This document shows, one piece after another, positions 19,749-50,532 of a DNA stretch of 50,532 nt. The stretch spans positions 1 to 50,532 of the forward strand of contig VGXO01000017.1 in assembly GCA_016873275.1 (NCBI GenBank), given 5' to 3'. The position numbers were made by a program, and so were the translations under genes. The DNA comes from Phycisphaerae bacterium (GTDB lineage Bacteria; Planctomycetota; Phycisphaerae; Phycisphaerales; SM1A02). A model generated the notes under the pieces. It worked only from the letters and a program-made list of their open reading frames with translations, made no database searches and had not been told where the DNA came from. Each line of letters starts with the position of its first letter. Positions within the stretch are counted from its first letter, which is position 1.

Positions 19749-21794
19749 ATGTCGAAGCGAACGTTGCTTGCGTCGGTCGCCGCGTCGGCCGTCGCAACGC
19801 TGGCTTGGACGCCAGCGGTTCACGCCCAGTGCACGGTCACGCCGCCCCCCGGCGCGATCGAGCAGAACGATGCCTGCGGCAGCGGCGAGGCGGGGTACCA
19901 GGACCCCAACGGCGGCTGCAACTACGCGGGCAACCCGACCCAGGCGCTCGGCACGCTGACCCCGTCGAGTTCGACGGTCGTCTGCTACGGCACCATCGGC
20001 AACTTCATTCCCTCCGGCTCGACGACCCCCTCGTCGCGTGACCTCGACTGGTACTCCTTCGAGCTCACCCAGCCCGGCACGGTGAACTTCAGCATCACCA
20101 ACAACAACTCGTCTGGCGCTTCAGTGCCGATCGTGGTCTTCGTCGCCAAGGGCTTCGACTGCGACACGCAGGAGTTCCTCGTCGGCCTCGAGACGGAGTT
20201 GTGCCCCTACACCGTCTCGGTGACCCTGCCCGAGGGCGTCCACAAGCTCATCCTGACCGTGCCCTTCGAGGGCGACGGTGGCGCGCTCTGCTCGGTCGAC
20301 TACCGAGCGACGGTCACCTACACGCCGGGCGTCTTCCCGGAGTGCGGTCTCGCCAAGGGCGGATCCTGCATCGAGACGCATCCGTCGGGCGGCTGCGACA
20401 ACTTCGCCTGCTGCGAGGCGGTCTGCGCCTTCGAGCCCGCCTGCTGCGCGGTCGAGTGGGACCAAGTCTGCGTCGACCTCGCGCTTTCCGAGGAGCTCGG
20501 CTGCGGCTACTTCGTCTACACCTGCAATCCGCCGGCCCCTGCCCCCGCGAACGACTGCGCGACCTCCGCGACGGTCGCCGAGGTGGGCAACACGTTCGAG
20601 TTCTCGAACGTGAACGCCTCGACCGACGGCCCCAACGGCGGCAGCAGCGTCTGCGCCGCGGGCATCGGCAATGACCTGTGGTGGAAGGTCCAGAGCCCCG
20701 GCACTGGCTACCTCACCGCGACCCTCTGCGGCGGCACCGACTTCGACACCGTGATCGACGTCTACTCGATCGGCACCTCGGGCAACTTCGACCCCGAGCT
20801 CCTGCCCGACTACCAGATCGGCTGCGCCGACGACACCTGCGGCATCGTCGCCGGACCCTCCATCGTCACCATCATCGATGCCGAGCAGGGCGACTGGTTC
20901 CTCTTCCGCGTCGGTGGCTGGATCGATCCCGCCACCGGAGTGGCGGCGACCGGCAGCGGCGTGCTGACCATCGAGTTCCTCAACGTCATCTACAACACCG
21001 GCGGCACCCGCCCGGTCATCTTCAACGGCGCGCTCACCAACCTTGGTCTCTCCTCCGGCTACCTGTCGGCGGCGAGTCCCAAGCGGTGGCTCGCCGTGCC
21101 CTTCACGATCCCGACGCCCCCGACCGGCGACAAGTGGCTCGTGCAGGAGATCGCCGCGAACGGCTTCAGCCCGGCCGGCGTGGTCAACGAGACGCTGAAC
21201 TGGATCATCTGGAGCCGGAACGCGGCGACCAACGCCCGTCCCGTCGACGGAGAGCAGATCGTCAGCGGCTCGGTGCCCTTCCCGGCGCCGATCGATGATC
21301 CGACCGGCAACCCCGCGAACGAGCAGCACGACATCGCCACCGACTTCGAGCTCGAGCCCGGCAACTACTTCCTCACCGTGTTTGCCGGCAACTCGACCAA
21401 TGGCGTGTCGCCCGCCAACTTCGCGTGGTTCTGCAACCCGCCGAACGGGATCGTGATGACCGACGCGCAGGGCGCCTATCTCTGGCGGTCGGCGAACTTC
21501 CCCGAGCCCGGCTTCATCCGGACCACTCCGGGCTGGCAGCCGGACCCGGCGCAGACCGATCCGAACTCGATCACGACGAACGGTTTCAAGATCCTCGGCG
21601 TGCCGTTCGAGGGCAAGGAGGTCATCCCCGGCGACCTCAACGGCGACGGCATCGTGAACGGCACCGACCTGACCATCCTCCTCGGATGCTGGGGCACGGT
21701 GACCAACCCGGCGTGCGTCCCCGCGGACCTCAACGCGGACGGCAGCGTCAACGGCACCGACCTCACGGTCCTGCTCGGCAACTGGACCGGCTGA
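19749..21794 (+). CDS. Secreted Cys-rich-module protein with C-terminal dockerin repeats
   Basis: A 681-residue exported protein. The signal peptide is residues 1-26, ending VHAQ. Around residues 195-245 is a compact Cys-rich module ([20 protein letters not shown], then [16 protein letters not shown]). Two beta-rich regions follow. The C-terminus is a two-repeat dockerin: [19 protein letters not shown] and [19 protein letters not shown], each with a calcium loop. No catalytic domain is recognised, so it is probably structural or binding. Start at ATG 19749 has AGGAGA seven bases upstream. It is a paralogue of the next gene, with shared blocks such as GLSSGY, WSR and FLWRS/YLWRS. Confidence 0.88.
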
Positions 21795-21820
21795 TCGCGA
21801 GGATCCCAAGTCTCCCCGAA

Positions 21821-21850
21821 CCCCCCCGGTCCTCGGACCGGGGGGGTTTT
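21821..21850 (+). terminator. Rho-independent terminator
   Basis: Perfect inverted repeat CCCCCCCGGTCC (21821-21832) and GGACCGGGGGGG (21835-21846) followed directly by TTTT and then CATTT. It is 27 bases after the stop of the first dockerin gene and is a textbook intrinsic terminator. The loop is very tight, so the innermost pair probably opens. Confidence 0.93.
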
Positions 21851-21904
21851 CATTTGTGCCGATTGTGGCGTTGACTCGGATTGCGCGTGGCGTCGCGGGC
21901 AGGA

Positions 21905-21922
21905 GGATTTACCTTTCCCAGT
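21905..21922 (+). promoter_or_regulatory. Possible promoter element upstream of second dockerin protein
   Basis: GGATTTACCTTTCCCAGT, about 80 bases before the ATG at 21997, repeats the TTTACCTT-x-CCCA core found before the first dockerin gene. It lies after that gene's terminator, so the second gene needs its own promoter. TACCTT (21910-21915) would be the -10 box. No clear -35 is seen. Confidence 0.38.
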
Positions 21923-21996
21923 GGATTATGTGGACGTCCCGCGGTCGGACGGCGTGGTCCCTCGCGGCGCGACCCGTGATCCGTCGGAGATTCACC

Positions 21997-23535
21997 ATGC
22001 GTGGCGGAAGATTGAACTGGCGGCTTGCGGCATCGACCGCGGTCGCGACCTTGGCGTGCGCCGGCCTCGCGTCGGCGCAGGACTGCCCCTCGAACTGCGT
22101 GCAGGAGCACGGTCCCGGCGGCTGCGACAGCCTCGCCTGCTCCGAGGCGGTCTGCAACGTCGAGCCGGCGTGCTGTGCCGTCGAGTGGGACGCGTTCTGC
22201 GTCGCCCTCGCCTATGAGAACTGCGGCTTCTACGAGTACAGCTGCCCGACGGGCCCCTATCCCGTGAACAACTGCCCGACCGGCGCGATCGTGGTGGGCG
22301 ATGGCGACGTCATCGCCTTCAACTCAACCACCGCGACCACGGTCGGACCGGACGAGCCCGAGTGCAACTCGAGCAAGGGCGACATCCCGATCTGGCGCGA
22401 CCTTTGGTATCGCTACAACGCGCCGAAGAACCTCCCCGCGGGAACCCTGCTCACCGCGAGCAACTGCAACCAGACGAACTTCGACTCGAAGATCGCGGCG
22501 TACGACATCGGCAACGGCACCTACGTGCCCTGCGAGCTGCCGCAGCTCTTCATCGCCTGCAACGAGGATGGCGCCGGCTGCGCGGACTTCACCTCGGAGC
22601 TGCAGATCGAGGTCACCGCGGGCACCTCCTACCTGATCCGCATGGGCGGCTACCTTGATGCCGCCGGCTCTGGCACCATCAGCTTCGAGCTCGGCAGCCC
22701 GCCGCCGCCGCTGCCGCCGACCATCTTCTACACCGGTCCTCAGCAGCCCGTCGTGCAGGTCTCGACCGGCAACCTGATCTACGGTGGTCTCTCGTCCGGC
22801 TACATCACCGGCTCGCTCGCGCAGCGGTGGGCCGCGATGCCCTTCACCGTTCCCGTGCCCGAGGCGGGTGCCGGCGGCGGGACGAGCTGGGAGGTCCAGA
22901 CGATCGCCGGCAACGGCTTCTGCCCCGGCGGCACCTGCGCCCCGCTTCTCAACTACATCATCTGGTCCCGCACCGGTCAGGCGAAGCCCGTCGATGGCAA
23001 CCAGGTCGTGACCGGCTCGGTCCCGACCCCGGAGCCCGACAATGACCCCAACGGCGACTATGCGGGCAACGATCGGTTCCGCATCGTGACCAACTTCGAG
23101 CTCGCACCCGGCGACTACTACATGACCCTCTACGCCGACGCTGGCGCGCCCAACGTCGTCGCCAACTGGGCGTGGTTCGCCAACGCCCAGCAGGGCATCC
23201 CCCTCGAGGACGCGCAGGGACCGTTCCTGTGGCGGTCCGAGTTGTTCCCGGCGCCCGGCTTCCTCCGCTCGGTCATCGCCCCCTGGGCGCAGCAGCCGAA
23301 GCTTCCGGCGAACACCATCTACACCTGCTCGTTCGGCGTCTACGGCGTGGTGCCGAGCAGCGGCATCCCCGGCGACCTCAACGAGGACGGGGTCGTGAAC
23401 GGCACCGACCTCACGATCCTGCTCGGAAGCTGGGGCGACTGCCCGAGCTCGGGCACGTGCATCGCCGACCTCAACGACGACGGCGTCGTGAACGGCACCG
23501 ACCTCACGATCCTGCTCGGCAACTGGACCGGCTGA
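21997..23535 (+). CDS. Secreted Cys-rich-module protein with C-terminal dockerin repeats, paralogue of preceding gene
   Basis: A 512-residue exported protein. The signal peptide ends LASAQ near residue 28. The Cys-rich module comes directly after it ([20 protein letters not shown], then [16 protein letters not shown]), so it is N-terminal here but central in the preceding paralogue. A beta-rich middle shares blocks with that protein: [37 protein letters not shown] and [13 protein letters not shown]. Two dockerin repeats close the chain ([19 protein letters not shown] and [19 protein letters not shown]). Start at ATG 21997 has GGAGA upstream. No enzymatic motif is seen. The two genes probably arose by tandem duplication with module rearrangement. 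Confidence 0.88.
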
Positions 23536-30471: not shown

Positions 30472-31713
30472 ATGCTCTGGAAGCAGCGACGTGATCGATT
30501 GCAATGGCTGCTCGACCTGATCCGCACGATGCGCGGGTGGACGCGGGGCGAGCTCTCGACGGCGCTGGGGCGGGACCCGACCAAGCTGGTGCCGGCGAGC
30601 GGGAATCCGAAGCTCGACTTGGTGGTGGGGGTGGCGGCGGCGCTCGGCTGGTCCGTGGGCGACGTGGTCGAGTCGATCTGGCTCGATCGGGCGGGCGAGG
30701 AGGGCCTCGCGGCGCTGCCGCAGGATCCCCGCGAGGTGGCGGCGGTGGTCGATCTCGCCCGCCGCGAGCGGCGCTGGGAGGACCTCCGCGCCGCGGGCGT
30801 CGCCCTGCGGCTCCGGGCGACGCACTCCGAGGAGCGGGCGCTCGCCGACCACGTGATCGCGAGCGCCTGGGCAGGCATGGGCTGCTTCGCCACCTCGCTC
30901 TCGGTCGCGCAGCGAGGCCTCGCGGAGCCGGGCGTGGGCTTCGACCTGCGGGAGCTCCTGTCGGTCGACGTCGCCGCGGCGCACTACGCGCTCTGGAACC
31001 TCGTCGAGGCGCGGGCGATCGCCAGCGAGATCCTGCGGAGCCTCGAGGGTCGCGAGGATGGTGACCTCCTGCGCCGGCTCGTCGCCGCCTCGGCGCGCTC
31101 GGTCCGCGGGCATGCCTCGCGGCGCCTGATGGCAGTCGACCTCCGGTCGAGCGCCCGTCACGCCGCGGAGGCGATCGATCAGCTCGAGGTCGCGGAGCGG
31201 GAGTTCCGCTGGCTCCACGACGACTTCGGCGATCCCGCCGACCTTGGTCGGGCGCACACCTGCCGCGGCGGCGCGCTGGAGGCGCGGGCGACGATCGATC
31301 CCGCCCGGGGCATCGACCTCGTCGACTCGATCGTCGCCGGCCTCGACGAGTGCGTGGACGTCGAGTCGTTCCGCGAGTCGGAGGTGCTGGAGAGCCACGG
31401 CTGGTGGTGCATCTTCGGCTGCAACGTCGCGCTTCGCGCTCCGGACGCGGACCGCACCCATCGCTCGATCGCGATCCTCACCAACAAGGCGTTCGAGATC
31501 GCGGACCGCCTCGACCACTGGGCGATGCGCGAGCGGGCGTTCACCATCGAGCACTTCCGCCGCGACCGCGCGGCGTGCGAGGTCGCGTCCTTCGAGGAGT
31601 GGGTGCTTGATCCGGAGGACCTTCGGGTCGTGATGGGCACCATGGGTCGCTTCCCCGGATTCCGCCCGATCGGCTGGCGCATCCTGCTCGAGTCCGGCGT
31701 GGTCGACGAGTGA
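30472..31713 (+). CDS. HTH-domain protein with helical-repeat C-terminal region
   Basis: A 413-residue soluble protein. Residues about 8-70 look like an XRE-type helix-turn-helix (DLIRTMRGWTRGELSTALGR, then NPKLDLVVGVAAALGWSVGD). The remainder is all-helical with a TPR-like pattern of paired helices (ARRERRWEDLRAAGVALRLR, ALWNLVEARAIASEILRSLE, HAAEAIDQLEVAEREFRWLH). No enzymatic motif is seen. This architecture is that of regulators such as Rgg/PlcR-like or XRE-TPR proteins that sense a peptide or partner, but no specific family is recognised. ATG 30472 has GGAGGA eight bases upstream. Its last codons and the 56 bases after the stop are repeated exactly 2,051 bases downstream. Confidence 0.72.
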   Translation: MLWKQRRDRLQWLLDLIRTMRGWTRGELSTALGRDPTKLVPASGNPKLDLVVGVAAALGWSVGDVVESIWLDRAGEEGLAALPQDPREVAAVVDLARRERRWEDLRAAGVALRLRATHSEERALADHVIASAWAGMGCFATSLSVAQRGLAEPGVGFDLRELLSVDVAAAHYALWNLVEARAIASEILRSLEGREDGDLLRRLVAASARSVRGHASRRLMAVDLRSSARHAAEAIDQLEVAEREFRWLHDDFGDPADLGRAHTCRGGALEARATIDPARGIDLVDSIVAGLDECVDVESFRESEVLESHGWWCIFGCNVALRAPDADRTHRSIAILTNKAFEIADRLDHWAMRERAFTIEHFRRDRAACEVASFEEWVLDPEDLRVVMGTMGRFPGFRPIGWRILLESGVVDE

Positions 31714-31769
31714 CGCGGAGGTCGGCGGGCGCGACGGGGGGAACCGTCGAGCCGCGCCGCCGACGCCGC
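31663..31769 (+). repeat. 107-bp exact direct repeat, copy 1
   Basis: Identical base for base to 33714-33820. It covers the final 16 codons and stop of the HTH gene ([16 protein letters not shown]) plus 56 bases downstream. The downstream part can form a GC-rich hairpin: GTCGGCGGGCGCG (31721-31733) with CGCGCCGCCGAC (31753-31764), one base bulged. Together with copy 2 it brackets the GT41-like gene. Confidence 0.95.
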
Positions 31770-31924
31770 ACTCTTGACCGGCAGACCCGCTGCATCGGGA
31801 GGGCGTGCATCGCCGTTCGGACCTTTCCGAGGCACTCTGCTCCGCTTCCTCGACTGCGCCGCTGGAGGGCACCCCGAGCATCCCGAACTCCCGCGTCGTC
31901 GACCATCGCATCGCCGACGCCGGT

Positions 31925-33556
31925 TCAAGGCGCCGAAGATCGAGCGGCAGCGGAGGAGACGAAGGCGTGCTCCGGCGGCTGACCCCGGCACCACCGCCCC
32001 CACGCATGCCGGATGGCGACCTCGAAGCGCCGCGCGAAGCCACGCTCATCGCAGAGAGTCCCATGCTTCATGCGGTGCCTCAGCGCCCCGTGGAGTCCAT
32101 GCCGCCGAGCGGGATCCGCCGCAAGCGACACCGCGGCGGAGATGAACTGATCGTCGTCATGGCAGGCGAGCTCGGGCAGATCGACGGCGGCGAGCAGCGT
32201 CTTGGCGACTCGGCAGCGATGGCTGCCGCCGATGCGGCTGATCACCGGAACGCCGTTCCAGAGCGCCTCGCAGGTCGTCGTGGTGCCGTGGTAGGGATAG
32301 GAGTCGAGCGCGACGTCGAGATCCGCATAGGCGCGGTAGTGCGCCTCCCTGCTCGAGCAGGGGGGACGGAGCTCGACCCTTCCTTGGGCGATGCCGAAGG
32401 ACTCCAGTCGGTTGAGGGTCGACTCCCGGAGCAGCGGGTCCTCGAGTCCCGGAGCCTTCAGCAGCAGCGAGGACGTCGGCACGGCGGCGAGCGTCCGCGC
32501 CCAGATCGAGAGGCACGCATCGCTCAGCTTGGCGAGCCGATTGAAGCTGCCGAAGATCGGGGCGCGAGCCGGTCGAGGGGGGATCTCGACGTCCGGGCTG
32601 AGTCCGTCGAAGCAGAGGAAGGGTGGCTCCATGCGGAGCAGGCTCTCCGACGCGAGCAGCTCCGAGCCGGGCGGATCCGTCAAGGAGTCCACCAATCGCC
32701 AACCGATCTCGGGAAGCGCCGTGGTGTTCGGGTAGCCGAGCCAGGTCACCTGCACCGGCGCGGGACGCAGCCGGAACACGTCGAGTCGATGACCCGAGGT
32801 GTGCCCGCTGAGATCGACGAGCACGTCGATCCGATCGCGAAGGACAAGCTCGGCGACGCGCTCGGCCGAGTCCCATCGCACATCCCGCCAATCCGAGGTC
32901 ATGGATCGGATCAGGTCGGTCATCTGGTCGGCGTGCTGGGCATTCGAGTATGCGACGGCCCGAAGGCCCGTCCCGTTGAGCCCTCGCAGCAGCGGCACGA
33001 GGAATGACGCGATCGGATGAGACCGAAGGTCGCCGGAGACGAATCCGACGCGGAGAGGACGTTCCTCGTCGCGGACGACGTCGACCCATCCCGACCGGCG
33101 ATCCTGCGGATCGATCGACGGCGGGCTCGACTCCGAGACCTCGCGGCGATGCTCCTCCAGCACCCATGACTCGGACCAGCAGGACTCGAAGTTGAGCGCG
33201 AACAAGCGGTCACTGCGTGCCTCTGGACCGGCACCGCGGAAGATCGCCTGCGCGAAGGCCTCGGAGGCGCGTCGCGCGTCGCCGATCTTCAGGCAGAGTC
33301 GGGCCAGGTTGTGGAAACCCTCGTGGGTCGCACCAGGAGTCGCGCAGGCACGATCGAACTGTCCGGTTGCCTCGACGTGTCGACCGAGCCCATGCAGCAG
33401 CACGGCGAAGTCGAAGTGGTCCTGGAAGCTGCCGCCACCTCCGCCGAGCGCCTCCGCAAACGCCCCCACGGCCTCCGCGCCGCGCCCCATCGCAAGCGAC
33501 AGCCTCGCACGACGGATGGCCTTCGCGGCCGAGGTGGACGGAGTCTCGGACGTCAT
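31925..33556 (-). CDS. O-GlcNAc transferase-like glycosyltransferase (GT41/SPINDLY family) with N-terminal TPRs
   Basis: A 543-residue protein: about four TPR-like repeats (residues 10-125, e.g. [40 protein letters not shown]), then the split GT-B catalytic region of GT41. Visible blocks include [20 protein letters not shown] (His180 matches the OGT active-site His), [30 protein letters not shown] and [20 protein letters not shown]. The last has the UDP-contacting Lys of [23 protein letters not shown] follows. Known relatives transfer GlcNAc, Fuc or other sugars to Ser/Thr or Asn of proteins; the sugar cannot be predicted. ATG 33556 has AGAGG upstream. It is transcribed against its neighbours and lies between two 107-bp direct repeats. 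Confidence 0.88.
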
Positions 33557-33616
33557 CGACCGCAAGCCTCTTGGGCGGAAGCGTAGCAGTCCACTCGACC
33601 GCCCGGATCGACCCGG

Positions 33617-33764
33617 CCTTCCGTGCGAGCACTGTCGGCGGCAACGGGGCGCGGACGGGGTGTTCTGGATCGAGGACGCCGTCGACGACGCCATGGGTCG
33701 CGTTCGTCGAACTCGCCCGATCGGCTGGCGCATCCTGCTCGAGTCCGGCGTGGTCGACGAGTGA
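33617..33764 (+). pseudogene. Decayed 3' remnant of a second copy of the HTH/helical-repeat gene
   Basis: The frame ending at 33764 reads [20 protein letters not shown] then [17 protein letters not shown] and the same last residues as the HTH protein at 30472-31713. The parent has IEHFRRDRA and MGRFPGFRPIGW at matching places. Alignment at constant 2,051-base offset starts at CATGGGTCGC (33692 matching 31641). It is diverged before 33714 and identical after it. No upstream part of the gene or start codon remains. Read as a paralogue fragment; chance similarity is possible for the part before 33692. Confidence 0.55.
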
Positions 33765-33820
33765 CGCGGAGGTCGGCGGGCGCGACGGGGGGAACCGTCG
33801 AGCCGCGCCGCCGACGCCGC
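33714..33820 (+). repeat. 107-bp exact direct repeat, copy 2
   Basis: Identical to 31663-31769, same orientation, 2,051 bases apart. It carries the remnant's last 16 codons, stop and the same downstream hairpin (33772-33815). It ends 75 bases before the pyrophosphatase start, with a TACCCT -10-like box at 33829-33834 in between. Confidence 0.95.
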
Positions 33821-33894: not shown

Positions 33895-34515
33895 ATGCCC
33901 GACCGACGCCCGTCCGCCTGGCGGCCCCATCCGTGGCATGGTCTCTCGGTTGGTCCCGAGCCGCCGCGGCGGATCCACGCCTACGTCGAGATCACGCCCT
34001 TCGACCTCGTGAAGTACGAGATCGACAAGGCGACCGGGTACCTGCGGGTGGACCGCCCGCAGCGCACGAGCTCGACGCCTCCGATGCTCTACGGATTCGT
34101 GCCACGCACGCTCTGCGGCGCCCGCGTCGCGCGGCTCGGCACCGACGGCGGTCGCGGCGACGACGATCCCCTCGACGTGTGCGTGCTCTCGGAGCGACCG
34201 ATCGAGCGGGCGGAGGTGATCCTCGACGCGACGGTCGTCGGCGGGATCCGCATGCTCGATGGCGGCGAGGCGGACGACAAGATCATCGCGGTCCTCGCGA
34301 AGGACCCGGCATGGGACGGATGCGCGGACCTCTCGGAGCTGCCCAAGCCGCTGATCGACCGCCTCGTCCACTACTTCTCGACCTACAAGACGCTGCCGGG
34401 CGAGCCGGCGCGGGCGCGGATCGACGCGGTCTACGGGCGTGACCTCGCGTTCCGGGTCGTCGAGGCGGCGATCGAGGACTACGTCGAGGCGTTCCCCGAC
34501 GCCGCGACCTCCTGA
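33895..34515 (+). CDS. ppa: Inorganic pyrophosphatase (family I)
   Basis: Cytoplasmic enzyme hydrolysing pyrophosphate to phosphate, 206 residues. The family I signature DDDPLDV carries the metal-binding aspartates near residue 94. Also present are [38 protein letters not shown] (substrate/metal loop) and [11 protein letters not shown]. An N-terminal extension of about 25 residues ([17 protein letters not shown]) precedes the core. Start at ATG 33895 has GAGGAG seven bases upstream; open frame further upstream crosses the 107-bp repeat and is not protein-like. It converges on the next gene with only 16 bases between. Confidence 0.95.
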
Positions 34516-34531
34516 CGACCACCGGGCGTGA

Positions 34532-34936
34532 TCACGCTCCCGAGGCGCGAGCCTCGGCGAGGAAGAAGGGGATCGAGCCGAGGTGATGGGAGTCGACCGC
34601 GACGTCGATCGAGTACTCGCCGAAGGAAGGCAGCGAGAGTCCGTTCACGTCGATCACGAGGGAGAGCGTGCTCGATCGCTCGCCCGCGGCGACCTGCACC
34701 GGCACCCGCGCCTGGATCGGGTTCATCACGCTCTTCCCGTCTGCATCAACCACCTGCAGGCGAAGCTCGTGCTCGCCCGCCTCGATCCGCTCGAAGCGGA
34801 TGCGGAGGGCGACCGAGCAGCGCGGCACCACGCTCGGCACCTTGGTGGCGACGAGGCGGTCCATGGCGGAAAGGATGCTGATGGCGCCCTGCTCCACGAC
34901 CGCCGCCTTGCAGAGGGTGAGGATCTCGAGCTTCAT
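34532..34936 (-). CDS. DUF6941-like small protein
   Basis: A 134-residue protein without signal peptide. The pattern KLEILTLCKAAVVEQGAISI, VVPRCSVALRIRFERIEAGE and HELRLQVVDADGKSVMNP, then a second beta half ending GEYSIDVAVDSHHLGSIPFF, resembles the DUF6941 beta-sandwich family, whose role is unknown. ATG 34936 is chosen where the family pattern begins; longer readings add Arg/Gly-rich sequence. A perfect 12-base palindrome GCGTGATCACGC (34526-34537) covers its stop codon at the convergent junction with ppa. Confidence 0.62.
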   Translation of the reverse strand: MKLEILTLCKAAVVEQGAISILSAMDRLVATKVPSVVPRCSVALRIRFERIEAGEHELRLQVVDADGKSVMNPIQARVPVQVAAGERSSTLSLVIDVNGLSLPSFGEYSIDVAVDSHHLGSIPFFLAEARASGA

Positions 34937-49422: not shown

Positions 49423-50532
49423 ATGCCCTCTCGCCGTGAGTCTGCCTTCGCAGGGATCCTCCTCTCGACGCTGCCCGCCTTGACCGTGCCGGCGGTCGCC
49501 GGCGCTCAGGGCGGTCTTCCATGGGTCACTCCGCCGGTCACCGCGCCCGGCGTCGAGCGGCGGCTCTTCGCGAGCGACGCCGCGGGCACGACGGTGAGCT
49601 ACCACGTCTTCCTGCCGCCCCAGTACGCCGCGGAGCCGGACCGCTGCTTCCCGGTCCTCTATTGGCTGCACGGCAGCGGCGCCGCGACGGCGAGCATCGC
49701 GCCGGTCAGCGGCTGGTTCCGCGACGCGATCGCCGCGGGGCTCATTCCGCCGATGATCGTCGTCTTCCCCAACGGCATGTCGTACCGGATGTGGTGCGAC
49801 TCCCTCGACGGCGCGACGCCGATGGAGACCGTGGTGATCGAGGACCTGCTGCCGGTCGTCGATGCCGCCTTCCGCACCGTCGCCTCGCGCGAGGGTCGGA
49901 TCGTCGAGGGCTTCAGCATGGGCGGTCAGGGCGCCGCTCGTCTTGGGCTGCGTCATTCCGACCTGTTCGCGGCGGCGTCGATCCTCGGCGCCGGACCGAT
50001 GCAGCTCGACTTCCTCGACGAGCCGGCGGGCACCAGCTTCCCGCGCGACCTGCGACTCCAGATCTACGAGCAGGTGTGGGGGAGCAGTCCGGCGTACTAC
50101 CTGGCGCAGCATCCCTCGACCATCGCCGAGGAGAACGCGGCGGCGGTCATCGCGAGCGGCCTCCGGATCCGCGTCGCGGTGGGGACGCTCGACGCCATGC
50201 TTGCGGGGAACGTCGCCTACCGCGAGCACCTCGAGGCGCTCGGGATCGACCACGAGTTCACTCCGGTTCCCGGCGTGGGGCACCTCGCGCCGGCGGTGAT
50301 GGAGGGGCTCGGCGACGCGAACTGGGCGTTCTACGAGGAGGTCTTCGGCGGCGTCGGCAGGCGGATCGGCGACCTCAACGCGGACCACCGCGTCGATGGC
50401 ACGGACCTCGGCATCCTGCTCGGCTCGTGGGGCGAGTGCCCGCCGAAGTCGTCGTGCCCCGCCGACCTCGACCATGACGGCATCGTCGGCGGGTCGGACC
50501 TCTCGATCCTCCTCGGCGCGTGGGGGGAGTAG
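49423..50532 (+). CDS. Secreted esterase (PF00756, esterase D type) with C-terminal dockerin
   Basis: A 369-residue exported hydrolase. The signal peptide is residues 1-28 (ending VAGAQ). The alpha/beta-hydrolase region has FPVLYWLHGSGA, the nucleophile elbow GFSMGGQGA (Ser near 165), a possible acid in VGTLDAMLAG and the His in PGVGHLAP. This is the pattern of putative esterases, including feruloyl and acetyl xylan esterases. The C-terminus has two dockerin repeats (GDLNADHRVDGTDLGILLG, ADLDHDGIVGGSDLSILLG). ATG 49423 is chosen for the GGAG seven bases upstream and the signal peptide; the earlier in-frame stretch is Arg-rich. The stop codon ends the window. Likely acts on polysaccharide side chains at the surface. 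Confidence 0.88.
   Translation: MPSRRESAFAGILLSTLPALTVPAVAGAQGGLPWVTPPVTAPGVERRLFASDAAGTTVSYHVFLPPQYAAEPDRCFPVLYWLHGSGAATASIAPVSGWFRDAIAAGLIPPMIVVFPNGMSYRMWCDSLDGATPMETVVIEDLLPVVDAAFRTVASREGRIVEGFSMGGQGAARLGLRHSDLFAAASILGAGPMQLDFLDEPAGTSFPRDLRLQIYEQVWGSSPAYYLAQHPSTIAEENAAAVIASGLRIRVAVGTLDAMLAGNVAYREHLEALGIDHEFTPVPGVGHLAPAVMEGLGDANWAFYEEVFGGVGRRIGDLNADHRVDGTDLGILLGSWGECPPKSSCPADLDHDGIVGGSDLSILLGAWGE

Follow-up and report, generated by a model that had tools for sequence, protein, structure and literature searches.

Gene conversion within a genome, between paralogues or between duplicated segments, is known in bacteria, and integrative elements insert at the 3' ends of genes with attL and attR sites on either side; the repeats of many such elements contain a gene 3' end. 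In Escherichia coli, single crossing-over of partly degraded, recircularised DNA yielded integrants in which part of the target gene end is duplicated over 109-950 bp (14 clones sequenced; PMC3240628). For the T6SS of Vibrio cholerae, a published report proposes that new genes enter at a homologous anchor and that displaced gene ends are shifted downstream (PMC5361080). Tandem duplication by transformation (PMC3784515) bears less directly on the locus considered here.

This locus lies in a window of 50,532 nucleotides (the whole stretch of DNA that was analysed) from a draft Phycisphaerae genome, and resembles several of these systems in part. As in bacterial intragenomic gene conversion, an identical tract sits inside a diverged homologous pair and the functional copy is the apparent donor; the recipient here, however, is not another functional paralogue but a short stump, without function, on the far side of an unrelated passenger. 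As in integrative elements with attL and attR, the cargo has a gene 3' end on each side, but no recombinase was found here and the repeat length differs between the two cases in this genome. The E. coli integrants likewise carry passenger DNA between copies of part of the target gene's end, whereas here a decayed homologous extension adjoins the second repeat copy; the other case in the genome, recG/AbiE, fits that system better. The proposal for V. cholerae likewise involves entry at a homologous anchor and an older gene, or the 3' end of a gene, shifted downstream, but the cargo there is an effector-immunity module and here a GT41-type gene behind a gene termed HTH, with a perfect 107-base repeat. 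The locus is a case of ordinary bacterial recombination, though its scar is unusually clean to see: it offers a readable example of a passenger that sits downstream of an intact gene and whose scar is a displaced gene end, part of which, on our reading, conversion has refreshed. Together with recG/AbiE, it suggests that duplicated gene ends are worth looking for in these Phycisphaerales genomes as signs of gene gain that was recent and involved no integrase.

Repeat pair and gene content of the locus

The features of the locus, in window coordinates, are as follows.

30472-31713, + strand: HTH gene, 413 amino acids, an intact open reading frame and the likely donor of the copied end
31663-31769, + strand: repeat copy 1, comprising the last 16 codons of HTH, the stop codon and a hairpin, 107/107 identical to 33714-33820
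31720-31761, + strand: GC-rich hairpin core of copy 1 within an 86-nt fold (again at 33771-33812 in copy 2)
31925-33556, - strand: GT41-type glycosyltransferase gene, the passenger between the copies (PF13844, 1e-35; ATG at 33554-33556)
33621-33713, + strand: decayed remnant of an HTH 3' end that keeps the register and reading frame of copy 2 (protein match and anchored test)
33714-33820, + strand: repeat copy 2, defined by identity to copy 1, between the divergent GT41 and ppa genes
33895-34515, + strand: ppa, soluble inorganic pyrophosphatase (PF00719), present in one of three genus genomes
34532-34936, - strand: DUF6941 gene (PF22091), the far border of the variable site, common to all three genus genomes

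The original prediction that two exact 107-bp direct repeats flank the GT41-like gene, each carrying the 3' end of the HTH gene, its stop codon and a hairpin, was borne out. Specifically, the copies match at every position, start 2,051 bases apart, begin at an HTH codon boundary and end a few bases past the hairpin core. They form the sole exact repeat of at least 40 bases in the window, where the 68 repeated 40-mers are what one such pair gives. Searching the same draft assembly (3.23 Mb, 136 contigs) with positions 31640-31800 returned no third copy and, besides the two copies, two partial hits, one of 37 and one of 24 bases. The same 107 bases were not found in another species in genus, viral, plasmid and phage searches; the viral contigs were probed by a single exact 30-base pattern, and the plasmid and phage collections by the flanked segment.

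The 86-nt fold of the hairpin has a predicted energy of -48.9 kcal/mol (z -2.30; 4 of 200 shuffles as stable), and no T-run follows it. The hairpin may act as a terminator for HTH, although the T-run is missing and the post-stop sequence in the genus relative G002 is unrelated and folds no better than shuffles; in the other genus relative, G001, the post-stop sequence is likewise unrelated. The G002 post-stop stretch, which by eye had suggested a conserved hairpin, was dropped as a candidate (z -1.01). In copy 2, the hairpin lies about 80-125 bases before the ppa start and could influence ppa expression. Nothing suggests that the repeat itself has any function.

The name HTH comes from an earlier sequence-only reading; the gene matches no Pfam family at E 0.001, and it was matched in 21 of the 41 genomes searched, its own included. 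The passenger scores 123.4 bits against PF13844 (family cut-off 25), a model match that places it in the GT41 glycosyltransferase family with a predicted activity. Its GC3 is 0.82, compared with 0.855-0.958 in 10 neighbouring genes; low GC3 as a mark of recent import was considered and rejected, three other GT41 stretches in the genome spanning 0.78-0.92.

Diverged homology upstream of copy 2 and the site in relatives

Homology to HTH continues in frame for about 30 codons upstream of copy 2, the protein match running from 33621 to 33761 against HTH residues 358-413, identical tail included. With the tail left out, the 45 codons upstream of copy 2 were scored in frame in a right-anchored test, with stop-free peptides from elsewhere in the genome and codon shuffles as nulls. 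The score of 38 against the HTH protein of G002 was reached by none of 1,500 genomic peptides and none of 1,500 codon shuffles, and the mean over 24 HTH homologues by 0/1,500 and 5/1,500, respectively (the own gene is among the 24; of 26 sequences extracted, those of G013 and G023 were left out for a wrongly picked frame). The other two frames scored 0 and 1. The remnant scores higher with the HTH proteins of G002, G004 and G018 (38, 33 and 28) than with that of its own genome (24, reached by 4 of 2,000 nulls), which an old split between remnant and HTH would lead one to expect; many other homologues scored lower, and several distant ones stood at chance level.

At the DNA level, going upstream, identity drops from 107/107 to 12/20 and then 9/20 (ungapped, in successive 20-base steps) before reaching background, while protein homology persists in the same frame. 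Bases 33691-33701 match the HTH gene 11/11 in register, the next 12 bases hardly match, and the perfect tract follows. The identity tract is thus bounded on its 5' side by diverged in-frame homology, with no clear homology past its 3' end, so that the bound is one-sided. The decayed HTH homology that had been predicted upstream of copy 2 is accordingly visible in the anchored in-frame comparison, whereas DNA alignment of the 180-base flanks upstream of the copies scores no higher than chance (350 and 223 of 2,000 random places reach the score); the local profile score of the remnant is weak (3.4 bits, exceeded by 6 of 2,000 nulls). Among 46 distinct HTH C-termini, collected by a scan that required M, R, GW, I/L and L and left free the five positions counted, the motif GTMGRFPxF shows G in 44, T in 42, F in 43, P in 45 and the final F in all 46. 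The remnant reads DAMGRVRRT, with D, A, V, R and T at these five near-invariant positions, and because these residues are lost it is a decayed HTH end rather than a working paralogue.

The order HTH to DUF6941 is common to all three genomes of the genus sample (the present genome, G001 and G002), and the DUF6941 homologues of G001 and G002 are 70-71% identical. Between the two genes lie about 100 bases in G002, in which HTH is directly next to DUF6941, a single DNA photolyase gene in G001 (PF03441, PF00875), and GT41, the remnant and ppa in the present genome. Because its contents differ in this way, the HTH-DUF6941 interval is a variable site in the genus and, on our preferred reading, a place of gene gain. 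The segment is absent from this site in both genus relatives, two genomes in all, as insertion readings require, and GT41 and ppa at this place are specific to the present lineage as far as seen among the three genomes. Soluble pyrophosphatase (PF00719) is found in this genome alone of the three, and the membrane pyrophosphatase (PF03030) in all of them. The latter has two matches in the present genome and one each in G001 and G002, the pair lacking the soluble enzyme. In a search of 25 genomes, four further genomes of the family and one from a different family of the order carry ppa homologues of 56-63% identity, and nine more have weaker ones; because of these occurrences, ppa may have been gained in the present genome or lost from G001 and G002. 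Outside the genus (for example, at loci L039, L040, L041 and L043), HTH is closely followed by what appears by eye to be a short secreted protein, an arrangement that suggests an operon not kept in this genus.

Duplicated gene ends elsewhere in the genome and the family

Direct repeats 600-12,000 bases apart were surveyed over 1,249,007 of the 3,233,085 bases of the genome (21 contigs, the window included), with at most eight pairs listed per contig, so that 58 of the 66 pairs of contig C4 and one of the nine of C14 are not among them. Four of the pairs listed combine at least 80 bases with at least 97% identity: the HTH repeat, a 297-base pair on contig C9, and two others spaced 610 and 939 bases apart, the second of which is a tandem gene pair. 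The further dispersed repeats that were inspected correspond to dockerin-type ends, tandem paralogues or similar parts of neighbouring genes, or are unassigned. At 20583-23532 of the window, for instance, two adjoining large proteins have similar dockerin-type ends, with an 83% repeat of 175 bases, 1,741 apart.

The pair on C9 is the last 297 bases of recG, duplicated at 99.3% identity 2,432 bases away, with an intact recG kept. Between the copies sits an AbiEi/AbiEii type IV toxin-antitoxin-like pair (L143, G000:C9, 5227-7955), and a schlafen-type helicase gene lies beyond the duplication. AbiE was not found in the roughly 1.5-kb recG flanks of G001 and G002, and no decayed extension was detected upstream of the recG fragment (score -11, reached by 1,364 of 1,500 nulls). 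Passengers might, in the bolder reading of the HTH/GT41 and recG/AbiE cases, be captured repeatedly behind gene 3' ends in an integrase-free manner that leaves a displaced 3'-end copy on the far side, a generalization that we regard as doubtful. If it were true, the host gene would stay intact and the direct repeats around the insert would allow its clean loss.

In the wider family, 69 other HTH loci were scanned for exact repeats of at least 30 bases within 8 kb, up to eight being listed per locus. Tandem HTH pairs occur in eight of the 69, two of the eight being repeat fetches of contigs already counted. One tandem HTH unit, in G017 (L050, G017:C10, 4460-6393 and about +2,010-2,020), has constant ends and a variable centre: near-identical islands of about 390 bases (the upstream region and the HTH N-terminus) and about 355 bases (the region after HTH) lie among stretches of about 40-80% identity. 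Such a mosaic is what conversion, or selective retention after duplication, would leave. Among the repeats listed, the other tandem pairs contribute one exact repeat of 34 bases between HTH copies (L105), and the repeats that touch HTH, found in L050 and L105, are all part of tandem HTH copies; none of the repeats listed in the 69 loci places an HTH end beyond a passenger.

Origin of the repeat pair

Several models can be envisioned for the origin of the repeat pair. Under the one that we prefer, with a probability of about 0.5, the entry of genes behind HTH long ago left a displaced copy of that gene's 3' end, whose final 107 bases gene conversion from the intact HTH gene has recently overwritten. 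GT41 and ppa would have entered behind HTH in the present lineage, and a second HTH 3' end, consisting of at least about 30 codons with the tail and hairpin, would have come to sit beyond GT41, whether duplicated in the course of insertion or left over from a tandem paralogue. The displaced stump would then have decayed, until the intact HTH end recently overwrote its last 107 bases through RecA-type gene conversion or a template switch. We infer the order of these events, the direction of copying and conversion as the copying step from the following considerations. The perfect tail beside the remnant is probably recent, with the intact HTH gene as its natural donor: the remnant has long been non-functional and the 107-base tail is intact, which points to copying from HTH to stump. 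Constraint on the sequence downstream of the HTH stop does not explain the identity, because neither G002 nor G001 has a related sequence there. Conversion is favoured because the part upstream of the tract lacks the near-invariant residues and is therefore unlikely to have arrived recently from a working gene. The original prediction had offered recent gene conversion or recombination, or an insertion that duplicated its target; recent copying stands, because perfect identity adjoins decay, with conversion as the favoured form, and a transposon-like target duplication does not, GT41 alone in the segment having a Pfam match. Given the placement of the copies, recombination between them would excise exactly 2,051 bases, comprising GT41 and the remnant, and bring HTH, hairpin and ppa into line. 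The repeats thus predict a specific loss, in keeping with the precise deletion anticipated earlier, although the resulting HTH-ppa junction is not a state of the genus relatives: HTH directly precedes DUF6941 in G002, the photolyase intervenes in G001, and ppa was not found in either.

The preferred account needs two or more steps, and the upstream homology on which it draws is short, escapes DNA flank alignment and is weak by local profile. Its main rival, a possible though less probable one, is a single recent single-crossover or homology-facilitated insertion that duplicated the HTH gene end. The recG case fits this rival well and counts against conversion, since a gene-end duplication in the same genome, there free of a decayed extension, is sufficiently explained by one insertion. 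A partial duplication of the target gene lies beside the insert at both places (107 bases at HTH, 297 at recG), as in the E. coli integrants (PMC3240628). Classical end joining is less likely, because a profile search with the Ku model (PF02735) found no match in any of the three genus genomes. Under a single insertion, however, the insert must have brought along the decayed, in-register HTH homology in the form of a pseudogene, and the GC3 of GT41, lying within the range of other GT41 stretches, is no evidence of recent arrival.

That a transposase or site-specific recombinase inserted the segment, so that the repeats are a target duplication or att sites, would agree with the presence of a gene 3' end in the repeats at both HTH and recG. 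It is nevertheless improbable. No transposase or integrase gene was found in the flanked segment, where GT41 is the sole open reading frame with a Pfam match and nine others of at least 90 amino acids have none at E 0.01. Terminal inverted repeats of at least 25 nt were not found at the segment ends; one inverted pair within 31770-33713 is internal (32293-32319 with 33115-33141, 81%; pairs listed from 25 nt). The repeat lengths of 107 and 297 bases are long and unequal between the two cases, and 107 bases is, to our knowledge, far above known transposase target duplications. The plasmid and phage collections gave no high-identity match to the segment, and the 69 other HTH loci, as far as the repeats listed show, tell against such an insertion. 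Transposon-type duplication and site-specific integration thus find no support, their defining parts being absent as far as tested. The idea that two old copies were held identical by selection on the hairpin or tail is the least credible of all: the hairpin is stable, but the coding part is identical too, silent positions included, and the post-stop sequence is not kept in the genus, the G002 stretch folding like its shuffles. An assembly artefact, in which two places were misjoined at a shared 107-base stretch, is very unlikely. The genome is a draft of many contigs and misjoins happen at repeats, but of 62 contig ends sampled, taken on both sides of 21 contigs and at the start of another 20, 11 overlap a different sampled end, or themselves, by exactly 127 bases, 15 share 22-117 and 36 none. 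We take the exact 127-base overlaps to indicate a de Bruijn assembly with k = 127; because the 107-base repeat is shorter than this apparent graph k-mer, 127-mers should cross both copies into unique flanks. In one of these overlaps, the last 127 bases of the contig, at 50406-50532 of the window, equal the start of contig C20, in which the locus probably continues.
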